DNA of 51,924 nt from Gammaproteobacteria bacterium (GTDB taxonomy: Bacteria; Pseudomonadota; Gammaproteobacteria; JAADJB01), in contig JAADJB010000001.1 of assembly GCA_013151035.1 (NCBI GenBank), positions 1 through 51,924 on the forward strand, written 5' to 3'. Every line of letters begins with the position of its first letter. The first letter of the stretch is position 1. The notes under the pieces were generated by a model. That model was not told the origin of the DNA. It ran no database searches and saw only the letters and a program-made list of their open reading frames with translations. This document shows, in pieces, positions 3,000 through 15,974 of this stretch. The position numbers and the translations under genes are program-made.

Positions 3000-3012
3000 G
3001 GAGGGCGCAGTC

Positions 3013-4155
3013 ATTAACCGACAAGCCATCCAGCAAGACCTAAGAGACTTCAAGATCGAGAATCATATGTTGCGTTATAGCAGCTTCATTCCTCGTTTTT
3101 ATAATTTTTGCAAGACACTGGGGCTAACTCCCGGCAAGATCATCCCCTCACGTGCATTCTGTTCGGATGAAAGCCAGGGCTATCCCATCATCCTGATTGC
3201 CAAACACTTTGGTGCCTTCCCTTTTAATCATGGCCACGTTGGTGGTATTGTCGCAACTGACCGACATGGTCCTCATGCCACACACGGCAAAGATGCTGTT
3301 ATCATCCAGGCCAGCCATGTCGGCTATGATCCACAGACCCGAACCTTTGGTGACTATCGTCGATTACAGACTGCCAATAATGATATCAGCACTAATTGTG
3401 GCAAGATTGAGAGCGTACTCAACTGGTATTTGGAAGAATACGAATTTGCCCGCAACAATATTTTTCTGCACAAGAAAGAGGGACAATACCATGTCATCAT
3501 CGATAATCAGCTGATAGAAAAACAAAAAGCAGCCGGACTCGAATTATACCAAGACAAGATTATTCAATATGATGAATACGGTTATCCCCGTTGCACACAA
3601 AGCTGGAGCACAGCAAAAGGTTATCTTGCCACCCCCGAATTTGTTCATAAAATGAATATAGACAGTTGGCAGGAACAACACAAGACACCCATCATGGATC
3701 AACTGAGTCCTGAATTATTCAGTTTCAAAAAAGAGATGCAGTATGATAAGGAAGGTCGTGACCATCTGGAAATAAACCTTCTCAGCCAGATGCCTGTCAT
3801 TATCTGTTCAGCCAACCCGATGTTGGCTGCTGCCTGCATCAACACCCGCATTGAGTTTGAACGCAGTTTCCGCAGCATCATCAAGGAACATGCCTACAAA
3901 AATAAAAATGTAGTTTTGATATCCGGCCTGAATATTGACATATCACCACAACAGGGGCAACTTTTCCCGTTAACTAAATTTGTCCCCTGGGCGGCATCGG
4001 TGCACCGGGAAGATGGCAGCTACACGCTAATGGAACAAGAAGAATTATGGCAGACCCTGCTTGAGCAGGAAGAGAATAACAATGATGAGATTGATCTCGA
4101 AAAGGCGATTCAGCTAATGAAGGATGTGGAAGAGATTCATATCCATTTTGATTAA
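3013..4155 (+). CDS. Probable LCIB/LCIC-like beta-carbonic anhydrase family protein
   Basis: Interconversion of CO2 and bicarbonate is the likely role, inferred from family resemblance. About residues 45-135 carry the layout of the LCIB-type beta-carbonic anhydrase domain: a cysteine followed by SDE (C50), a glycine-rich loop (HFGAFPFNHGHVGGI), a histidine in ASHVGYDP (H102), a GDYRR segment, and a second cysteine in NCGKI (C129). Cys, His and Cys would be the zinc ligands, and D52 the partner aspartate. About 230 further residues form a C-terminal region I do not recognise. The start is uncertain. AGGGAGG at 2998-3004 points to the rare start codon ATT at 3013; ATG 3067 is downstream, and ATG 2887 or 2953 would overlap the preceding gene. 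Inorganic-carbon supply fits the nearby cbbQO and Calvin genes. Confidence 0.62.
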   Translation: MNRQAIQQDLRDFKIENHMLRYSSFIPRFYNFCKTLGLTPGKIIPSRAFCSDESQGYPIILIAKHFGAFPFNHGHVGGIVATDRHGPHATHGKDAVIIQASHVGYDPQTRTFGDYRRLQTANNDISTNCGKIESVLNWYLEEYEFARNNIFLHKKEGQYHVIIDNQLIEKQKAAGLELYQDKIIQYDEYGYPRCTQSWSTAKGYLATPEFVHKMNIDSWQEQHKTPIMDQLSPELFSFKKEMQYDKEGRDHLEINLLSQMPVIICSANPMLAAACINTRIEFERSFRSIIKEHAYKNKNVVLISGLNIDISPQQGQLFPLTKFVPWAASVHREDGSYTLMEQEELWQTLLEQEENNNDEIDLEKAIQLMKDVEEIHIHFD

Positions 4156-7547: not shown

Positions 7548-9665
7548 TTAAGCCGTGGTTAAACGTCGATAAATCTCCGACACCTTCAACGGTAACTTGC
7601 GCACATCATCCAGCACGGCATAATTCACCGCGCCGTACATGTGTGGCAGATAATCAGCACCCTCGGTATCAATAGTAATACAAAAGGGATGTATCCCTTC
7701 CTGTCGTGCTTCAATAAGAGCCTGTCGCGTATCCTCAATACCATAGGCTCCACGATAACCGTCATAGTCATCCGGCTTACCATCCGACAAGGTAATCAAC
7801 AGACGCGTACGCGCCTCTTGCTCATTCAACAAATAACTGAAATGCCGAATCGCCACACCCATACGAGTATAATCACGCGGACTAATACCACTGATACGGG
7901 CACGCACCTCATTATCATACGCATCATCAAAGGACTTGATACGATAGACTTCACAGCGTTTACGCGTCATCCCGGAGAAACCATAAATCGCATAGCGATC
8001 ACCGAGTGACTCCAGCGACTCACACAACAACACCAGCGCCTCACGTTCGGCATCATTGATCCAGCCCTTGGTAGAACCACTCATATCGACCATAATCAGT
8101 GCTGCAATATTACGATCCAGCCGTCGCTTGCGGGTGAACAAACGATCACTCATCTCCAGCCCGCTACGCACATCCGCATACGCCTCAACCAGCGCATCAA
8201 TATCGACATCATCTCCGAAGGGCTGTTTTCTAAGCAGGCGATCCTCGCCACGCAAGGCCTCAAAACTACGCCGTAACTCAGCAATCAAACCGTGATACTT
8301 TTTCAAGGTGTCGGCGACAAAACCATCATGTACCGGATGCACCTCCAGCTCACGCAACACTGCCCAATTCTTGCGATAATATTTACGATTAAAATCCCAC
8401 TCATTATACAAGAAGGCACCCTCCTCATGATAGGTCCCCTTCCACACGTCCTCGGGGTTCAATGCCTCCTCTTCAATCACGCCGGCATAATAACCCCCAT
8501 CACCGGCGGCATGCAGATATTCATCCGGGATCATACCGAGATCTTGCATGATCGATGCCAGTGTGCCTTTGACGTCATCCGGGGGTGCCATCAATTGACC
8601 TTCCAGCTCAAATACCTGGTTCATCTCGCCTGACTCACTTTCAACCGTACGCAATTCAATCGTTGGTAACACATTGGCAAGCACATCCTCTTCATCCTGT
8701 GCCTGTTGGTATTCATCCGCCATCTGCGCCAGCGTCTTGCGAAAACCCGAGTAATCCTGCGCCAGACGGGCATCACGCACCGCCTTGACCTTATCAGGGA
8801 ATAACTCTCCTTGATAAGGCAACACAACAGGGGTAACACTGACATACAGACTATGCAGCAATTCCACAACAGACTCGACACAAGCATCAACATGTTCAAG
8901 CTTTTCCAACACCCGTGGTGGCACTTGTAACTCAGGCTGCAAGCCAGCCTTGATGAGTTGCATCTGTCGATAGATACCAGGTAGATCGCGTGCAATGCAA
9001 GCATCTAAACGCACGGTTTCCAACATATAAAACAGAGCCAATGCCCGATCAGGATTGGCATAAACCAGTAAGACCTGTTCCAGGTCAATGCGCCAGGTGC
9101 CATACATGCACTGCGCCCATTGATGCACCGCCAACACCTTATAATGATCAAAGTGTTCAGCACGATTATCGCCATGACTAATATATTCAGGCAAAAAAAT
9201 GGTCTCGGTATCAGTGTAGACCGTCTCACCCACGGTAATCTTCAACGCACGTCCACCGAGTCCACAGACAAAGGTCTCTAGCACCTGACGCACCGATTCA
9301 AGACCCAGCGCATTTTTACGTCGTTCCCGTTGCGCGGAGAATTCATCCAGTGATTGAATAACGCATACCGCCGCATGTAGACCGGAGGTGTCGTAGACAT
9401 CCATACAATGCACCAGCCACGACTCAACACCCTCTTCATTCATACACTGAAGGGCACGATTCGCATGGGCAATAAACTGATAGGCAAGCCCCGAACTGGT
9501 GCGTGCAGTCGCCTCGGCCCAATGCAGGACAAATTCCTGTTGTGCACGACTCAGACCAACGACCACATCGATAGTCTCATCTGCTTCAACATCCGACATC
9601 AGGATGACGGCAATACGTTCATGCAGGATATCAGGTGTTAGTGGTGCTTGGGCAGGGCGAGGCAT
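7548..9665 (-). CDS. cbbO: CbbO/NorD-type von Willebrand factor A domain protein
   Basis: Probable adaptor of a MoxR-type AAA+ activase. In autotrophs CbbO binds Rubisco and works with CbbQ to remove inhibitory sugar phosphates; the related NorD pairs with NorQ for nitric oxide reductase. The 705-residue product has a helical N-terminal two-thirds and a C-terminal VWA domain whose metal site (MIDAS) DMSGS lies near residue 525, followed by FSGMTRKRC and ITLSDGKPDDYDGYRG. Length and order match CbbO. The cbbQ-like gene lies 42 bases upstream on the same strand. No norBC or Rubisco gene is in the window. The autotrophic setting makes CbbO the better name, but NorD is not excluded. Confidence 0.78.
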   Translation of the reverse strand: MPRPAQAPLTPDILHERIAVILMSDVEADETIDVVVGLSRAQQEFVLHWAEATARTSSGLAYQFIAHANRALQCMNEEGVESWLVHCMDVYDTSGLHAAVCVIQSLDEFSAQRERRKNALGLESVRQVLETFVCGLGGRALKITVGETVYTDTETIFLPEYISHGDNRAEHFDHYKVLAVHQWAQCMYGTWRIDLEQVLLVYANPDRALALFYMLETVRLDACIARDLPGIYRQMQLIKAGLQPELQVPPRVLEKLEHVDACVESVVELLHSLYVSVTPVVLPYQGELFPDKVKAVRDARLAQDYSGFRKTLAQMADEYQQAQDEEDVLANVLPTIELRTVESESGEMNQVFELEGQLMAPPDDVKGTLASIMQDLGMIPDEYLHAAGDGGYYAGVIEEEALNPEDVWKGTYHEEGAFLYNEWDFNRKYYRKNWAVLRELEVHPVHDGFVADTLKKYHGLIAELRRSFEALRGEDRLLRKQPFGDDVDIDALVEAYADVRSGLEMSDRLFTRKRRLDRNIAALIMVDMSGSTKGWINDAEREALVLLCESLESLGDRYAIYGFSGMTRKRCEVYRIKSFDDAYDNEVRARISGISPRDYTRMGVAIRHFSYLLNEQEARTRLLITLSDGKPDDYDGYRGAYGIEDTRQALIEARQEGIHPFCITIDTEGADYLPHMYGAVNYAVLDDVRKLPLKVSEIYRRLTTA

Positions 9666-9681
9666 AGATAGTTCCTATTTA

Positions 9682-9706
9682 TTTCAAGGGGTCAGAGCTC
9701 TTGAAA
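9682..9706. repeat. GGGGTCAGAGCTCTTGAAA repeat, single unit
   Basis: One unit of the sequence that forms the large palindromes at 43554-43610 and 44493-44568. The unit is itself an imperfect palindrome (TTTCAAG ... CTTGAAA). It fills most of the gap between cbbQ and cbbO, ending about 17 bases before the cbbO start codon. Confidence 0.8.
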
Positions 9707-9707
9707 G

Positions 9708-10523
9708 TTAAAAAACAGCTGCACTTAACTCACTAACGGCGGCCAGCATCTCGGGATCATCGGTTAATGCCTGGGCAATACAGGCACGACAGGCGGTTGC
9801 CGGGGCAATCCCGTCGACCATTAATTTGGCGGCATGCACCAACAGGCGGGTACTTGCGCCTTCTTCCAGACCGCTACCTTTGAGATTGCGCGTCATTTGT
9901 GCAAAACGCACCAGTTGATGTGCCTGATCCAGATCTATCCCAGTTTCCTTACTGACTATCATCGCTTCCAGCTCGGCACTCGGATAATCGAACTCCAGTG
10001 CCACAAAACGCTGACGGGTACTCTGTTTGAGATCCTTGAGAATACTTTGATAGCCTGGGTTATAGGATATTGCCAGACAGAACTCCGGCCCCGATTCCAG
10101 TAACTCACCGGATTTTTCCATCGGTAACATGCGGCGATCATCCGCCAGTGGGTGAATAACGACTGTTGTGTCCTTGCGCGCCTCTACCACTTCATCCAGG
10201 TAGCAGATGGCACCATTACGCACGGCGCGTGCCAAGGGCCCATCGACCCAGAGAGTTTCACCTGCCGTTACCAAAAACCTTCCCACCAGATCCGAAGCGG
10301 TCAGATCATCATGGCAAGACACCGTAATCAATGGTCGTTGCAGCCGCCATGCCATGTATTCCATAAAACGAGTCTTGCCACAACCTGTGGGGCCTTTCAG
10401 CAATAATGGAATCTGGTTACGATAGGCACTTTCAAACAGTGCAATCTCATCACCGACAGGTTCGTAATAAGGTTCTTCACGAAGAATGTTTTCTTCAATC
10501 TTTAATGCGCGTGCCTGTGTCAT
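9708..10523 (-). CDS. cbbQ: CbbQ/NirQ/NorQ-type MoxR AAA+ ATPase
   Basis: Ring-forming AAA+ ATPase that drives activation of a partner enzyme; in CO2-fixing bacteria this is Rubisco. The 271-residue product has Walker A GPTGCGKT (residues 44-51), Walker [12 protein letters not shown] near 106-116, a sensor region AISYNPGYQ and an arginine-finger-type segment [16 protein letters not shown]. The length is normal for the CbbQ/NorQ branch. ATG 10523 (MTQAR) is chosen over the frame start at 10583, which gives an unlikely N-terminal extension. It is the first gene of the cbbQ-cbbO pair. NirQ/NorQ have the same sequence features, so the choice rests on context. Confidence 0.8.
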
Positions 10524-10590
10524 GTGAGAGTCTCTTGCCTTAATACTTGAGTAAATCACTTGGTTAAAGGCGCATTCTAGCATAGATTAT

Positions 10591-10614: not shown

Positions 10615-10846
10615 TTTCACACCTATACATTTATTCTATCCCAGCATTCGGAGATTCGATAAAAAACCTCTCATTGTCGCTAGCCTCTATACCATAGATA
10701 CTGTATTGTATACGCGTTAAATGTCGTTGATAAACGATCCAAATTCTCGAGCAAGCTCCGGTTACAATTCAAACGAATCGGCAGGGGCATACTCTAAACA
10801 AACTGAATAACAGTTATCCATGTTGTTATTCACAGGAGGAAGAACC
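10615..10846. other. Divergent intergenic region between cbbQ and qmoA
   Basis: The whole gap from 10524 to 10846 is 323 bases and carries no coding frame I can support. It holds one palindromic half-unit, a candidate qmo promoter, and the AT-rich near-palindrome TATACCATAGATACTGTATTG at about 10688-10708. That near-palindrome could be an operator, but I cannot match it to a known regulator. The qmoA ribosome-binding site AGGAGGAAG is at its end. Confidence 0.45.
10674..10702 (+). promoter_or_regulatory. Candidate sigma-70 promoter for the qmo operon
   Basis: TTGTCG at 10674-10679 and GATACT at 10697-10702 are separated by 17 bases; each matches the consensus at four of six positions. The start of qmoA is about 145 bases downstream, so there would be a long leader. 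The match is modest and untested. Confidence 0.3.
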
Positions 10847-12133
10847 ATGTCTGAGGTAATCGCAACCAACCAGACCATTCTGGTGGTAGGCGGAGGCATT
10901 AGCGGTCTATCAGCAGCCCTGGAGGCCGCGGAATGTGGCAAACAGGTGATACTGGTTGAAAAGAACCCGTCTCTAGGTGGCCGAGTTAGCCAACTCTACA
11001 AATATTTCCCCAAGCTTTGTATCCCTTCCTGTGGCATGGAGATCAATCTACGCCGCTTAAAGGCGAATAAGAACCTGCGTATCCTGACCATGGCTGAGGT
11101 TAGCACGGTTGAAGGCGACGCCGGTAATTACAGCGTCATCATCAAGACCAGCCCACGTTATGTCAATGCCAACTGTACCGCCTGCGGTGCCTGTGGTGAT
11201 GTGGTCGAGACCGAATTTGATAATGCCTACGACTTTGACAAGAGCAAACGCAAGGGCGCTTATCTCCCGTTTGATATGGCCTATCCACAACGTTATGTAC
11301 TGGATTCACGTATTATCGGCACCGATGAGGCTGAAGCCGCCAAGGCCGCCTGTAAATATGGTGCCATTGATCTGGACGAACAGGCAACAGAGACCACACT
11401 TAATGTCGGTGCCATCATCTGGGCCACCGGCTGGCGTCCTTATGATGCCAACAAGATTCAACCTTATGGCTATGATCGTTATGACAACGTGATCACCAGC
11501 CTGGAATTTGAACGCATGTTAGACCCACAGGGCCCAACCGGCGGCAAGATCCAGCGTCCATCCGATGGTGCCACACCGAGCAATATCGCCTTCATTCAGT
11601 GCGCCGGTTCGCGTGACCGTAACCATCTAAAACATTGTTCACGCGTCTGCTGCATGGCAACCCTGAAGCAGACCACCTATCTGGCTGAACAGCTGGAAGG
11701 GGATTACAAAGCATCGGTCTACTATATTGATATCCGCGCCATTGACCGTATCGATGACTTCCATCGTAAGGTTAAGGAAGATGAGCATGTCACCTTCATC
11801 AAGTCCAAGGTTGCCAACATCACCGAGGATCGTGATACCCGTAACCCAGTGTTAAATGGTGTCGACACCGAAGGCTACCATCGTTACAGCAACCCGCATG
11901 ACCTCGTTGTGCTGGCGATTGGCATGGAGCCCAGTGTTGCAGCGGATAGCCTGCCAACACAGGTGACTGTCAACGAGCATGGCTTCATTGATGCCGATGA
12001 CAGCGATCAGGGTATCTTCGCCGCCGGTTGTTCAAGCGATGCGCTGGACGTTAACCGTGCCGTACAAAATGCGACCGCTAGTGCACTTCGTGCCATTCAG
12101 GTCATTAATAAAGTCTCCAGGGCAGAGGGTTAA
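10847..12133 (+). CDS. qmoA: QmoA-type HdrA-like flavoprotein
   Basis: FAD and iron-sulfur subunit of a quinone-interacting oxidoreductase that exchanges electrons with APS reductase, or of a related Hdr complex. The 428-residue product starts with a FAD-binding site VVGGGISGLSAALEA (about residues 12-26), has CIPSCGMEINLRRL near 59-72, a cysteine cluster NCTACGACGD near 107-116, and HCSRVCCMATLKQ near 262-274, all typical of the HdrA/QmoA group. ATG 10847 follows AGGAGG with good spacing; the frame start at 10820 does not. It is the first gene of a four-gene unit, 3 bases ahead of qmoB. Confidence 0.85.
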   Translation: MSEVIATNQTILVVGGGISGLSAALEAAECGKQVILVEKNPSLGGRVSQLYKYFPKLCIPSCGMEINLRRLKANKNLRILTMAEVSTVEGDAGNYSVIIKTSPRYVNANCTACGACGDVVETEFDNAYDFDKSKRKGAYLPFDMAYPQRYVLDSRIIGTDEAEAAKAACKYGAIDLDEQATETTLNVGAIIWATGWRPYDANKIQPYGYDRYDNVITSLEFERMLDPQGPTGGKIQRPSDGATPSNIAFIQCAGSRDRNHLKHCSRVCCMATLKQTTYLAEQLEGDYKASVYYIDIRAIDRIDDFHRKVKEDEHVTFIKSKVANITEDRDTRNPVLNGVDTEGYHRYSNPHDLVVLAIGMEPSVAADSLPTQVTVNEHGFIDADDSDQGIFAAGCSSDALDVNRAVQNATASALRAIQVINKVSRAEG

Positions 12134-12136
12134 GTT

Positions 12137-14359
12137 ATGTCTGACATGAAGATCGGAACCTATATCTGTAAGGGCTGTGACATTGAGTCACGTCTGGATT
12201 GTTCACAACTTGCCACCACCGCAACACGCGATGGCAAGTCCGCTATTACTAAAGAGCATGATTTCCTGTGTAACGCCGAAGGTGTTGCCATGATTCAGAG
12301 TGATATTGACAACGAAGGTGTTAATCGCGTTGTTATCGCTGCCTGTTCGCGTCGTTCAAAGGTTGAGGCCTTTAGCTTCGAGAATGTCGTCATTATCCGC
12401 ACCAACCTGCGCGAAGGCGTGATCCGTGTGCGCCCTGATAATGAGGAATCCCGCGAAACCACGCAGGAAATGGGTGATGACTACATCCGCATGGGCTGTG
12501 CTGAGGCGAAGTATTCCACACCACCATCCAATAGCGGCGAGAGTGAGGGTAACGCCAGCATCCTGATCGTTGGTGGCGGTATCTCCGGCATGACGGCAGC
12601 AATTGAGGCCTCTAAAACCGGTTACAAGTCCAGCCTGATTGAGAAGAGTGACCACTTAGGTGGTGCCGCAGCTGATTTCAGCAAGCGTATCCCTTCCCGT
12701 GCCCCGTTTGATGGCCCGCAGGACACCGGCATTGCCGCAATGATTGCGACTATCGAGTCTGATGACAATATTACCGTGCATCTAAACTCCACCGTCAGCA
12801 AGACCAGTGGTGCGCCGGGTCGTTTCTCGGCTGATATCAGCGTTGAATCCGGCTCTACTGTCACTGAAAACTTTGGTGCCATCATCATGGCATCCGGCTT
12901 CACACCTTATGATGCCAATCAACTGACTGAATTCAGTTACAAGGACAGTCCTGACGTCATTGATCAGATGGAACTCGAACGTCTGGTTAAGGCTGCCGAT
13001 GGCGGTGCTATCAAGCGTCCATCCGATGGCAAAGAAATCAGCAGCGTTGTTTTTGTACAGTGTGCCGGTCAACGTAGTGAGAAAGAAGGCCATCTGCCTT
13101 ACTGTTCCGGTCATTGTTGTCTGACCTCGATCAAACAGGCCAGTTACTTCAAGGATCAGAACTCAGCGATTGATACCAATATTATCTATACCGATCTGCG
13201 CACCCCCGGTGCCGGTGGTGAGGATTTCTACCGCAGCGGTCAGGATCGCGGCATTACCTTCACCAAGGGTGAAGTGAGTGAGGTCAGTGTTTCAGGTGGT
13301 GATGTACAGGTTAAATTCAAGGATCTGATCCTCAACGAAGAGGTGAATAGCTCGGTTGATCTGGTGGTGCTGGCAACCGGTCTGCTGCCAAACTCGGGGG
13401 TTGATATCTCATTACCCGCCGTCGCTACCGACGATGAAGCCGCACCTGAGGTGACCGTTGATTCCATTCTTAACCTGGATTATCGCCAGGGCAAGGATCT
13501 GCCTCACTTGAAGCATGGCTTTAATGACTCTCACTTTATCTGTTTCCCTTATGAGACCCGTCGTACCGGTATCTACACCGCCGGCCCTGTACGCCGTCCC
13601 ATGGACATGGCACAGGCAATGGAGGATGCAACCGGTGCGACACTGAAGGCAATACAGGCGCTGGAGAATTCCAAAATTGGTCGAGCCGCACATCCACGTT
13701 CCGGTGATCTATCCTTCCCAACCTTCCGCAAGGAAGGCTGTACCCAGTGTAAACGCTGCACAGTCGAGTGCCCGTTTGGTGCTATCGACGAAGATGAAAA
13801 GGGTTACCCGGTCTACAATGAGGCGCGTTGTCGTCGCTGTGGTACCTGTATGGGTGCCTGTCCGGTACGTGTTATCTCGTTTGAGAACTATTCCGTGGAG
13901 ACCGTTGGTCAACAGATCAAGACCGTTGATATCCCGGATGAGTTCGATGAAAAACCACGTATCCTGGTACTCGCCTGTGAAAACGATGCCTACCCGGCAC
14001 TGGATATGGCCGCCAGTAATGGCAACCATTACAGTCAATGGACGCGAGTGATCCCACTACGCTGCCTCGGCAGCACCAGCACCATCTGGATCACCGATGC
14101 ATTGAACAGTGGTTATGACGGCATTATCCTGATGGGTTGCAAGAAGGGTGACGACTACCAGTGTCACTTCGTCAAGGGTTCCGAACTAGCTCACGAACGT
14201 ATGGGCAAGATTGATGAGACCTTGAAGACACTGAATCTGGAGACAGAGCGTGTCGAGACCTACGAGATCGCAATCACCGATATCGAACGTGCACCACGAC
14301 TGATTAACGAGATGGCTGAAACCATTGACAAGATCGGCATGAGTCCATTCAAGTTCTAA
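12137..14359 (+). CDS. qmoB: QmoB-type HdrA-like flavoprotein with ferredoxin and MvhD-like domain
   Basis: Second flavoprotein of the Qmo complex, passing electrons through FAD and iron-sulfur clusters. The 740-residue product has a distinct N-terminal domain beginning with TYICKGCDIESRLDC, a FAD site ILIVGGGISGMTAAIEA near residue 145, a cysteine block YCSGHCCLTSIKQ near 322, a double [4Fe-4S] ferredoxin region (CTQCKRCTVECPFG and CRRCGTCMGACPVR, about 534-575), and a C-terminal MvhD-like electron-transfer domain starting near 620 (ILVLACENDAYPAL). Domain order matches QmoB. It starts 3 bases after qmoA, so translation is probably coupled. Confidence 0.87.
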   Translation: MSDMKIGTYICKGCDIESRLDCSQLATTATRDGKSAITKEHDFLCNAEGVAMIQSDIDNEGVNRVVIAACSRRSKVEAFSFENVVIIRTNLREGVIRVRPDNEESRETTQEMGDDYIRMGCAEAKYSTPPSNSGESEGNASILIVGGGISGMTAAIEASKTGYKSSLIEKSDHLGGAAADFSKRIPSRAPFDGPQDTGIAAMIATIESDDNITVHLNSTVSKTSGAPGRFSADISVESGSTVTENFGAIIMASGFTPYDANQLTEFSYKDSPDVIDQMELERLVKAADGGAIKRPSDGKEISSVVFVQCAGQRSEKEGHLPYCSGHCCLTSIKQASYFKDQNSAIDTNIIYTDLRTPGAGGEDFYRSGQDRGITFTKGEVSEVSVSGGDVQVKFKDLILNEEVNSSVDLVVLATGLLPNSGVDISLPAVATDDEAAPEVTVDSILNLDYRQGKDLPHLKHGFNDSHFICFPYETRRTGIYTAGPVRRPMDMAQAMEDATGATLKAIQALENSKIGRAAHPRSGDLSFPTFRKEGCTQCKRCTVECPFGAIDEDEKGYPVYNEARCRRCGTCMGACPVRVISFENYSVETVGQQIKTVDIPDEFDEKPRILVLACENDAYPALDMAASNGNHYSQWTRVIPLRCLGSTSTIWITDALNSGYDGIILMGCKKGDDYQCHFVKGSELAHERMGKIDETLKTLNLETERVETYEIAITDIERAPRLINEMAETIDKIGMSPFKF

Positions 14360-14378
14360 TGTTATTTAGATGATAATC

Positions 14379-14400
14379 TGACGTAAGATACCTTACGTCA
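14379..14400 (+). other. Intercistronic hairpin between qmoB and hdrC
   Basis: TGACGTAAG (14379-14387) and CTTACGTCA (14392-14400) form a perfect 9-base-pair stem with a 4-base loop. No U-tract follows, so it is unlikely to be a terminator. It may stabilise the upstream message or balance expression of qmoAB against hdrCB. Confidence 0.55.
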
Positions 14401-14445
14401 ATGCTGGAGGTAACACGGAGCAATTCGTGCCTACGGGAGCATAAT

Positions 14446-15063
14446 ATGAGTAATGCAGTAGTAGAAAAATATCGCAACAACTTCCTCAAGGAAGTTGCCG
14501 ACAATGTTGAAGAAGGTGAATGGGTACGCATGTGTATGCAGTGCGGCGTATGTGCCGGCTCCTGCCCCATGGGGCCCCATTGGGATCACCCGCCACAAGA
14601 GCTGTTCATGATGATTCGTGCCGGTAAACGTGACGAGGTATTGAGTTCCAATTCCATGTGGATGTGTACCTCCTGTTACAACTGTATCGTGCGTTGCCCA
14701 CGTGAGTTACCCATCACTCATATCATGCATGGTCTGGCGCATTATGCCAAGAAGCTCGGCATTGCACCGAAGAATCAGCCCACCGCCAAGTTTGCCCAGT
14801 TATTCTGGGACAACCTGACCAAGACCGGTCGTGTTAACGAACTACGTCTGGGCATACAACTGTATTTCATGAATGGCTTTGCCGAAGGTATCAAGACCTC
14901 GCTGAAGATGAAGGATGTTGGTATGGGCATGATGATGACCAAACGCATGAGCCCAATGGAGTTCTTCGTAGGGCATAGCTGTAAAGACAAGAGCGGTTTA
15001 CACGCCATCCTCAAGAAGGCGCAGGAAATCGAAGACAACAAGATGGCACAAGCAGGAAACTGA
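14446..15063 (+). CDS. hdrC: HdrC-like iron-sulfur subunit (4Fe-4S dicluster)
   Basis: Iron-sulfur electron carrier that links the QmoAB flavoproteins to the HdrB-like subunit. The 205-residue product has two [4Fe-4S] motifs, CMQCGVCAGSCPMG near residues 28-41 and CTSCYNCIVRCPRELP near 75-90, and no membrane segments. In classical QmoC this domain is fused to a membrane cytochrome b; here it stands alone, as in HdrC. ATG 14446 follows GGGAGC with good spacing; the frame start at 14401 is ignored. It is followed 11 bases later by the hdrB-like gene. Confidence 0.85.
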   Translation: MSNAVVEKYRNNFLKEVADNVEEGEWVRMCMQCGVCAGSCPMGPHWDHPPQELFMMIRAGKRDEVLSSNSMWMCTSCYNCIVRCPRELPITHIMHGLAHYAKKLGIAPKNQPTAKFAQLFWDNLTKTGRVNELRLGIQLYFMNGFAEGIKTSLKMKDVGMGMMMTKRMSPMEFFVGHSCKDKSGLHAILKKAQEIEDNKMAQAGN

Positions 15064-15074
15064 GGAAATACATC

Positions 15075-15974
15075 ATGGCGAAGAAAGAATATTCATATTA
15101 CCCGGGTTGTTCCTCACAAAAAGCAGCCTCTGCCTCCAACTACCAGACCTCGGTCAATAATATCTGTGATACGCTGGATATCCAGCTCAACGAGATCCCG
15201 GACTGGAACTGTTGTTCGGCATCCATCGGTTATGCCGGTGGTGGTGAACTCCCGCGTATGGCATTGTCTGCCCGTAACCTGGCATTGAGTGAACAGGCCA
15301 ATCCGACACAAGACATTGTAGCCACCTGTGCTGCCTGCTGGCTCGCTACCAAGGAGACGCAGGAGCGCCTGCATCAGGACGATGGACTGATGACCGAGAC
15401 CAACCAGATATTGGCCGAGGCCGGTCTAAGCGTTAAGGCAAACCAGAATGTACGTCACATGGTTGAGGTATTGATCGAAGACTTCGGTTTTGACGGCCTG
15501 GGCGCACCGGTCAAGAAACCACTGGAAGGCATCAAGATCGCCGGCTATGTCGGTTGTCAGACCAATCGTCCCTTTGGTATTGATGGTGAATCCTTTGAGA
15601 ACCCTAAATACCTGGACAAGATGATCGAGACTATGGGTGCTGAGGCCTGTGGCGACTACGAGAAGAAGGTATCCTGTTGTGGTGGTGCCTTAGCCTTCTC
15701 CGAGCCTGAAAAGAGCCAGGAGCTGATCAAGGGTATTATTGAATCCGCCTATGATAATGGCGCTGATATGATTGCAACACCCTGCCCGGTTTGTCAGTTA
15801 AACGTCGAAGTCTATCAGGGTCAGATCAACCAGAAGTATGGCACCAAGTTTGATATCCCAGTGGTCTATTACAGCCAGCTAATGAGTGTTGCCTATGGCG
15901 GCAATGTTAAGCAGGCGGGACTGGATGGACAGATCATCCGTGCCAAACAGCTGGAAGATATTGCCGGAAAATAG
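15075..15974 (+). CDS. hdrB: HdrB-like subunit with two CCG domains
   Basis: Catalytic-type subunit of the heterodisulfide-reductase family. The 299-residue product has two cysteine-rich CCG domains: the first with YYPGCSS (about 8-14), WNCCSAS and CAACW, the second with GYVGCQTNRPF, SCCGGALAFS and TPCPVCQLNV (about 155-245). In methanogen HdrB these cysteines bind two noncubane [4Fe-4S] clusters. No membrane segment is present. The ribosome-binding site GAGGAAA overlaps the hdrC stop region. As the last gene of qmoA-qmoB-hdrC-hdrB it suggests a soluble Qmo/Hdr complex; the electron acceptor cannot be told from sequence. Confidence 0.87.
   Translation: MAKKEYSYYPGCSSQKAASASNYQTSVNNICDTLDIQLNEIPDWNCCSASIGYAGGGELPRMALSARNLALSEQANPTQDIVATCAACWLATKETQERLHQDDGLMTETNQILAEAGLSVKANQNVRHMVEVLIEDFGFDGLGAPVKKPLEGIKIAGYVGCQTNRPFGIDGESFENPKYLDKMIETMGAEACGDYEKKVSCCGGALAFSEPEKSQELIKGIIESAYDNGADMIATPCPVCQLNVEVYQGQINQKYGTKFDIPVVYYSQLMSVAYGGNVKQAGLDGQIIRAKQLEDIAGK

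Follow-up and report, generated by a model that had tools for sequence, protein, structure and literature searches.

The analysed window is the whole 51,924-nt stretch of contig JAADJB010000001.1 (positions 1-51,924, forward strand) from assembly GCA_013151035.1 of a Gammaproteobacteria bacterium (JAADJB01). At 3013-4155 on the forward strand, stop codon included, it contains a gene for a protein of 380 amino acids that is a bacterial relative of LCIB, as judged from the open reading frame, Pfam, an alignment of relatives and a structural model, and probably a carbonic anhydrase, not described before, that belongs to the carbon-supply machinery of bacteria. The genome has one copy of the gene, and neither a signal nor a membrane segment was seen in the product. 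Translation likely starts at an ATT codon (3013-3015), based on a Shine-Dalgarno-like GGAGGG read from the sequence at 3000-3005 on the same strand, 7 bases 5' of the ATT, and on the relatives, whose ATG starts lie within about 2 residues of the resulting N-terminus. Directly upstream is an open reading frame of 79 amino acids with its stop codon at 2997-2999. An in-frame ATG at 2953 was rejected as a start because it would overlap with this upstream frame, and another at 3067 because it would remove residues present in the relatives. The gene apparently uses the rare start codon ATT after a strong GGAGGG, and no alternative start fits the N-terminus of the relatives.

A Pfam scan of the protein returned a single family, LCIB_C_CA (PF18599), with an E value of 7.2e-6 and 25.9 bits against a gathering score of 25. 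The match spans residues 22-161 and covers all three putative zinc ligands, and it is the significant profile hit on which the initial annotation, in proposing an LCIB-type enzyme, had made that proposal depend. Taken alone this match is marginal, as it exceeds the gathering score by less than one bit and the same gene reached 20.9 bits, below the cut-off, in a six-frame search of the genome. At the level of the family, however, the assignment is firm, since 49 of 52 relatives match PF18599 at E <= 0.1, with a best E value of 7.5e-9. NCBIfam contained no model for the window protein, and sequence searches against PDB chains (phmmer, a whole-family profile and an N-terminal profile) gave chance matches alone. 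The Pfam scan likewise showed no match to the classical beta-carbonic anhydrases (Pro_CA, PF00484) at E <= 1, to DabA (PF10070) or to the CsoSCA domain.

Within the Pfam match, the conserved Cys, Asp, His, Cys site of the LCIB/LCIC group is present. C50-S51-D52 (3160-3168, forward strand), in which the TGT codon of C50 (3160-3162) is followed by SDE, would provide the first zinc ligand and the catalytic Asp, while H102 (3316-3318, forward strand) in HVGYDP and C129 (3397-3399, forward strand) in NCGKI are the presumed further ligands, all by homology to LCIB and the beta-carbonic anhydrases. These motifs, together with GDYRR, occupy exactly the positions in 3013-4155 that had been assigned to them previously, and they do not occur there by chance. 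C50, D52, H102 and C129 are unchanged in 52/52 aligned sequences, as are R47, R84 and R117 and, in the C-terminal half, P269, D309, S311 and P325-A327. The invariance of the presumed ligands and of the Asp suggests that zinc chemistry is kept throughout the family. In beta-carbonic anhydrases and DabA, an Asp assists a Cys-His-Cys zinc site (PMC13144422). By analogy, the zinc would be bound between C50, H102 and C129, with D52 orienting the water on the zinc and taking a proton from it, giving the reaction CO2 + H2O <-> HCO3- + H+.

The structure predicted by AlphaFold from the protein's own family alignment (mean pLDDT 86.8, pTM 0.86) matches LCIB-type structures over almost the whole chain. 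Foldseek against the PDB gave eight matches below 1e-3 (E 4e-7 to 5e-4), seven of them chains of PtLCIB4, LCIB or LCIC and one titled 'CCM related protein'. VIA-align placed PtLCIB4 first (Z 19.8, rmsd 3.1, 219/241 residues), followed by LCIB (Z 16.4) and LCIC (Z 16.2), with classical beta-carbonic anhydrases next at Z 7-8. The predicted model thus has the overall LCIB fold (VIA Z 16-20), and the earlier suggestion to compare it with LCIB/LCIC structures yielded a strong match, although sequence identity in the structural alignments is low (10-17%). No match below E 0.001 was found for the model in a viral structure library. Given this whole-chain match to a zinc-site family, it is unlikely that C50, H102 and C129 lie far apart in the predicted fold. 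Three lines of evidence, the Pfam match, the unchanged site residues and the predicted fold, thus support membership of the LCIB family.

The aligned span of the model, residues 14-347, also changes the view of the rest of the protein. The initial annotation had described about 230 extra residues after the carbonic anhydrase domain as a region of unknown nature that may be a new partner domain. The residues are real, but they do not follow the domain, as the LCIB fold extends to about residue 347, and the appended partner domain was rejected on the same grounds: the supposed C-terminal region is the second half of the carbonic anhydrase fold. The first half (about residues 14-147; 3052-3453, forward strand), delimited by Pfam and the model, holds the presumed zinc site, and the second half (about residues 251-347; 3763-4053, forward strand), delimited by the alignment and the model, is conserved and contains GLNIDISP and FVPWAA. 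Between them lies a family-specific insertion (about residues 148-250; 3454-3762, forward strand), which is mostly beta, belongs to the least conserved parts of the protein and has borders estimated from the aligned ranges. About 100 residues of the model have no counterpart here in algal LCIB, and the insertion is a constant feature of the bacterial family. Among 398 genomes of the phylum, no bacterial PF18599 member free of the insertion, the borders of which are approximate, was found, the own genome being the sole match. When predicted alone, the insertion retained the same elements (pLDDT 75.6), and searches with this lone model found no known fold (Foldseek best E 0.85, VIA best Z 3.4); as the model is moderately confident, the insertion could still have one. 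Our inference is a role in interaction or regulation.

An LCIB fold with an intact site is no guarantee of catalysis, as recombinant Chlamydomonas LCIB/LCIC is inactive. Alternatively, the protein could be catalytically silent or conditional and act as a sensor of CO2/HCO3- or as a regulator of SulP, DabA or Rubisco, with the insertion as its contact surface. Chlamydomonas LCIB, LCIC and their complex show no activity in vitro (PMC8825250), the insertion is constant across the family, the neighbouring genes encode transporters and a LysR/CbbR-type regulator, and an unregulated cytosolic carbonic anhydrase would, by the theory of CO2-concentrating mechanisms, be counterproductive in cells with carboxysomes. 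In contrast, all 52 aligned sequences keep the presumed ligands and the Asp, and the diatom proteins PtLCIB3 and PtLCIB4, the latter being the best structural match, have been described as constitutively active (PMC9614477). With inactive Chlamydomonas proteins on one side and active PtLCIB3/4 on the other, an inactive or conditional enzyme stays a serious rival, even if clearly the less likely one, to the active carbonic anhydrase preferred here.

Scanning the genomes of 84,980 species yielded 57 relatives, of which the full-length ones show 42-56% identity; the 52 sequences in the alignment are all essentially full-length, with 42-55% identity to the window protein. The carriers, mainly chemolithoautotrophs, are labelled Thiobacillus, Hydrogenophilales, Thiotrichales, Sedimenticola, Nitrospirae, Nitrospinota, Desulfobacteraceae, Verrucomicrobia and others; as most of them are MAGs, single labels may be binning errors. 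Such an error is likely for the copy of an 'Aquificaceae' MAG (L050), which is very close to that of a Leucothrix MAG. Some MAGs (JALSLX, DQSN) contain two divergent LCIB copies (L029 with L044, L041 with L048), recalling the algal LCIB/LCIC pair. No relative was found on plasmids. The family is uncommon, as a full-length member occurs in 1 of 398 genomes of the phylum sample, namely the own genome.

The genes that surround these relatives point to inorganic carbon. SulP permeases flank LCIB in 15 of 57 loci, often within 100-320 bp, and the observed 12 of 47 loci compare with 0.71 expected by chance given how many SulP genes each carrier genome has, uncorrected for relatedness. On the tree, the SulP-neighbour state changed at least 7 times and appears in beta-/gammaproteobacterial and Nitrospirae/Nitrospinota branches. 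Other recurrent neighbours are PF00361 antiporter-type subunits and an RHH protein (10 loci each), CbbO-like proteins (7), LysR (6), DabA (5), CbbQ and the Rubisco large subunit (4 each) and Sbt_1 (SbtA; 2). DabA and SbtA are established DIC carriers. The protein could nevertheless be a general housekeeping carbonic anhydrase that is not specially tied to carbon fixation, its neighbourhoods reflecting a few related genomes: many loci, that of the window included, have no DIC gene directly adjoining LCIB, and the Thiobacillus-like clade provides most of the SulP neighbours. Such an explanation appears improbable, as SulP neighbours also occur under Sedimenticola, Lamprocystis, Nitrospirae and Nitrospinaceae labels and Rubisco or LysR in other branches, a classical beta-carbonic anhydrase is already encoded in the own genome, and the rarity of the family fits a housekeeping enzyme poorly.

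The presence of Thiobacillus among the carriers also raises the idea of a zinc hydrolase of LCIB fold that acts on a different small molecule, for instance COS or CS2, which would suit a sulfur-oxidising lifestyle, since a clade D beta-carbonic anhydrase from Thiobacillus thioparus hydrolyses COS (PMC13098186). The identified neighbours, however, encode bicarbonate carriers, Rubisco and cbbR-type regulators, with no COS or thiocyanate genes among them, and the family extends to Nitrospirae, Verrucomicrobia and Nitrospinota labels; a COS or CS2 hydrolase is thus the least probable of the alternatives considered, and a carbonic anhydrase remains the preferred reading.

Two further features of these neighbourhoods were observed. 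In SulP proteins of about 700 amino acids beside LCIB (L033:3767-5893, L040:3765-5915), the two parts of the transport core are separated by an insertion of some 130 residues that looks coiled-coil-like by eye, and their Pfam match is split; SulP proteins of similar lengths stand beside LCIB in L025, L023, L042 and L045; this insertion could possibly be a docking element. A small RHH_9 gene lies convergent to LCIB, mostly at a distance of 27-170 bp, in L023 (3480-3740), L025 (7155-7382) and eight more loci, in Thiobacillus-type genomes.

Rubisco genes lie near LCIB in some of these loci. In L005, one of the two relatives nearest to the window protein by path, a LysR-LCIB pair adjoins CbbO, CbbQ, RbcS and RbcL. 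In L038, CsoS2, RbcS and RbcL lie on one strand and LysR-LCIB diverges from them; the LysR-type protein has CbbR as its best NCBIfam match (234 bits, below the strict cut-off), and a SulP gene is present as well. Both L038 and L046 are carboxysome loci with CsoSCA and BMC-type shell proteins. LCIB as a substitute for the carboxysomal enzyme was rejected on account of this CsoSCA, which makes LCIB an additional carbonic anhydrase there. Across the family, a Rubisco match over the cut-off was found in 33 of 50 carrier genomes compared to 116 of 398 genomes in the phylum sample. The remaining 17, some with Desulfobacteraceae, Nitrospirae and Verrucomicrobia labels, show that the role is not strictly linked to Rubisco. 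Nitrospirae, Nitrospinota and Desulfobacteraceae are lineages known for other carbon-fixation pathways, and as many of these 17 carriers are labelled as such lineages, their distribution points to inorganic-carbon supply more generally.

The genome of the organism itself, which looks like that of a sulfur-oxidising chemolithoautotroph, encodes form I and form II Rubisco loci with CbbQ/CbbO and LysR, three SulP genes and one classical beta-carbonic anhydrase (Pro_CA, contig C42), and it showed no match to DabA or to BMC shell proteins. The enzyme may be redundant, given this second carbonic anhydrase. In the window, fba, pyk, pgk, gap and tkt are located at 17.6-24.7 kb, and a Calvin cycle coded nearby, as noted before, is fair with respect to fba, pgk, gap and tkt. 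No DIC transporter adjoins LCIB in the window, and the transporter link rests on the relatives. The previously suggested role in supplying or trapping CO2/HCO3- gains support from the gene neighbourhoods of these relatives and from the two Rubisco genes of the own genome. A third CbbQ/CbbO-like pair lies in the window at 7548-10583 on the reverse strand, apart from Rubisco, and adjoins an Hdr/Qmo-like cluster (10820-15974); its CbbQ is 60% identical to that of the Rubisco locus, and the similarity of the CbbO-like protein is clear only in the C-terminal part (28%). This pair may activate something other than Rubisco.

Based on these observations, the protein can be read, with a probability of roughly three in four, as a zinc carbonic anhydrase from the LCIB (theta/beta-like) family that is located in the cytoplasm and works in the supply of inorganic carbon. 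In cells without carboxysomes, a cytosolic carbonic anhydrase can supply CO2 from imported HCO3-; in cells with carboxysomes, it would deplete the HCO3- pool if it were neither regulated nor mainly active in CO2 hydration. In the own organism, LCIB would most likely equilibrate or trap inorganic carbon arriving through SulP-type carriers or by diffusion of CO2, near free Rubisco. In the carboxysome-bearing relatives, where a separate CsoSCA is present, LCIB would act outside the carboxysome and probably convert CO2 to HCO3- in a recapture of the kind proposed for algal LCIB (PMC9122830; PMC8825250).

LCIB was first described as a new group of beta-carbonic anhydrases and later placed among the theta-carbonic anhydrases (PMC7215798). 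With PtLCIB4 of Phaeodactylum tricornutum (PDB 5b5y) and LCIB/LCIC, the window protein shares the Pfam family, the fold of the whole chain and the Cys-Asp/His/Cys order, and it has a Gly/His-rich stretch resembling the CGHR domain named for theta-carbonic anhydrases. The family differs from these proteins in being bacterial, mostly from chemolithoautotrophs, and in the roughly 100 extra residues of its beta-rich mid-fold insertion, and its genes neighbour those for SulP, Dab, Sbt and Rubisco. DabA resembles it in the proposed task of DIC supply, in a beta-carbonic anhydrase-like Cys-His-Cys site with an Asp (PMC13144422) and sometimes in sharing the locus, but has about 1000 amino acids, is assigned to another family in Pfam and functions together with a membrane partner. 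CsoSCA and the iota-carbonic anhydrases are likewise encoded with Rubisco in chemolithoautotrophs, although CsoSCA coexists with LCIB in the same carboxysome loci and the iota type has an unrelated fold (PMC8132391). The classical beta-carbonic anhydrases share the Cys-His-Cys site and a distant similarity in fold (Nce103 Z 8.2), but are represented by a separate Pro_CA gene in the own genome, and the window protein has no Pro_CA match. In the literature searched, which excluded the founding LCIB structure paper (PMC5187666) and a paper on a new carboxysomal carbonic anhydrase (PMC11409652), no description of a bacterial LCIB beside DIC transporters was found, and LCIB is absent from three of the papers searched, on the DIC toolkit of chemolithoautotrophs or on microbial carbonic anhydrases (PMC10880623, PMC13098186, PMC12628692).

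The family and its core fold are therefore known, the insertion and the genomic setting are new, and the lineage is a different one. Perhaps, though this is a tentative and rather doubtful extension, these proteins form a bacterial LCIB/theta branch whose insertion docks on the SulP/Dab or Rubisco system, a pyrenoid-free module with which chemolithoautotrophs recapture CO2; algal LCIB could possibly have its origin in such a branch. LCIB is central to the algal CO2-concentrating mechanism and yet puzzling, as it has a carbonic anhydrase site while the Chlamydomonas protein shows no activity in vitro. A bacterial LCIB with genetic links to bicarbonate carriers, DabA and Rubisco would offer simpler genetic hosts in which to study the function, direction and partners of LCIB, and it would extend the set of proteins with which chemolithoautotrophs handle inorganic carbon by one not yet on record.
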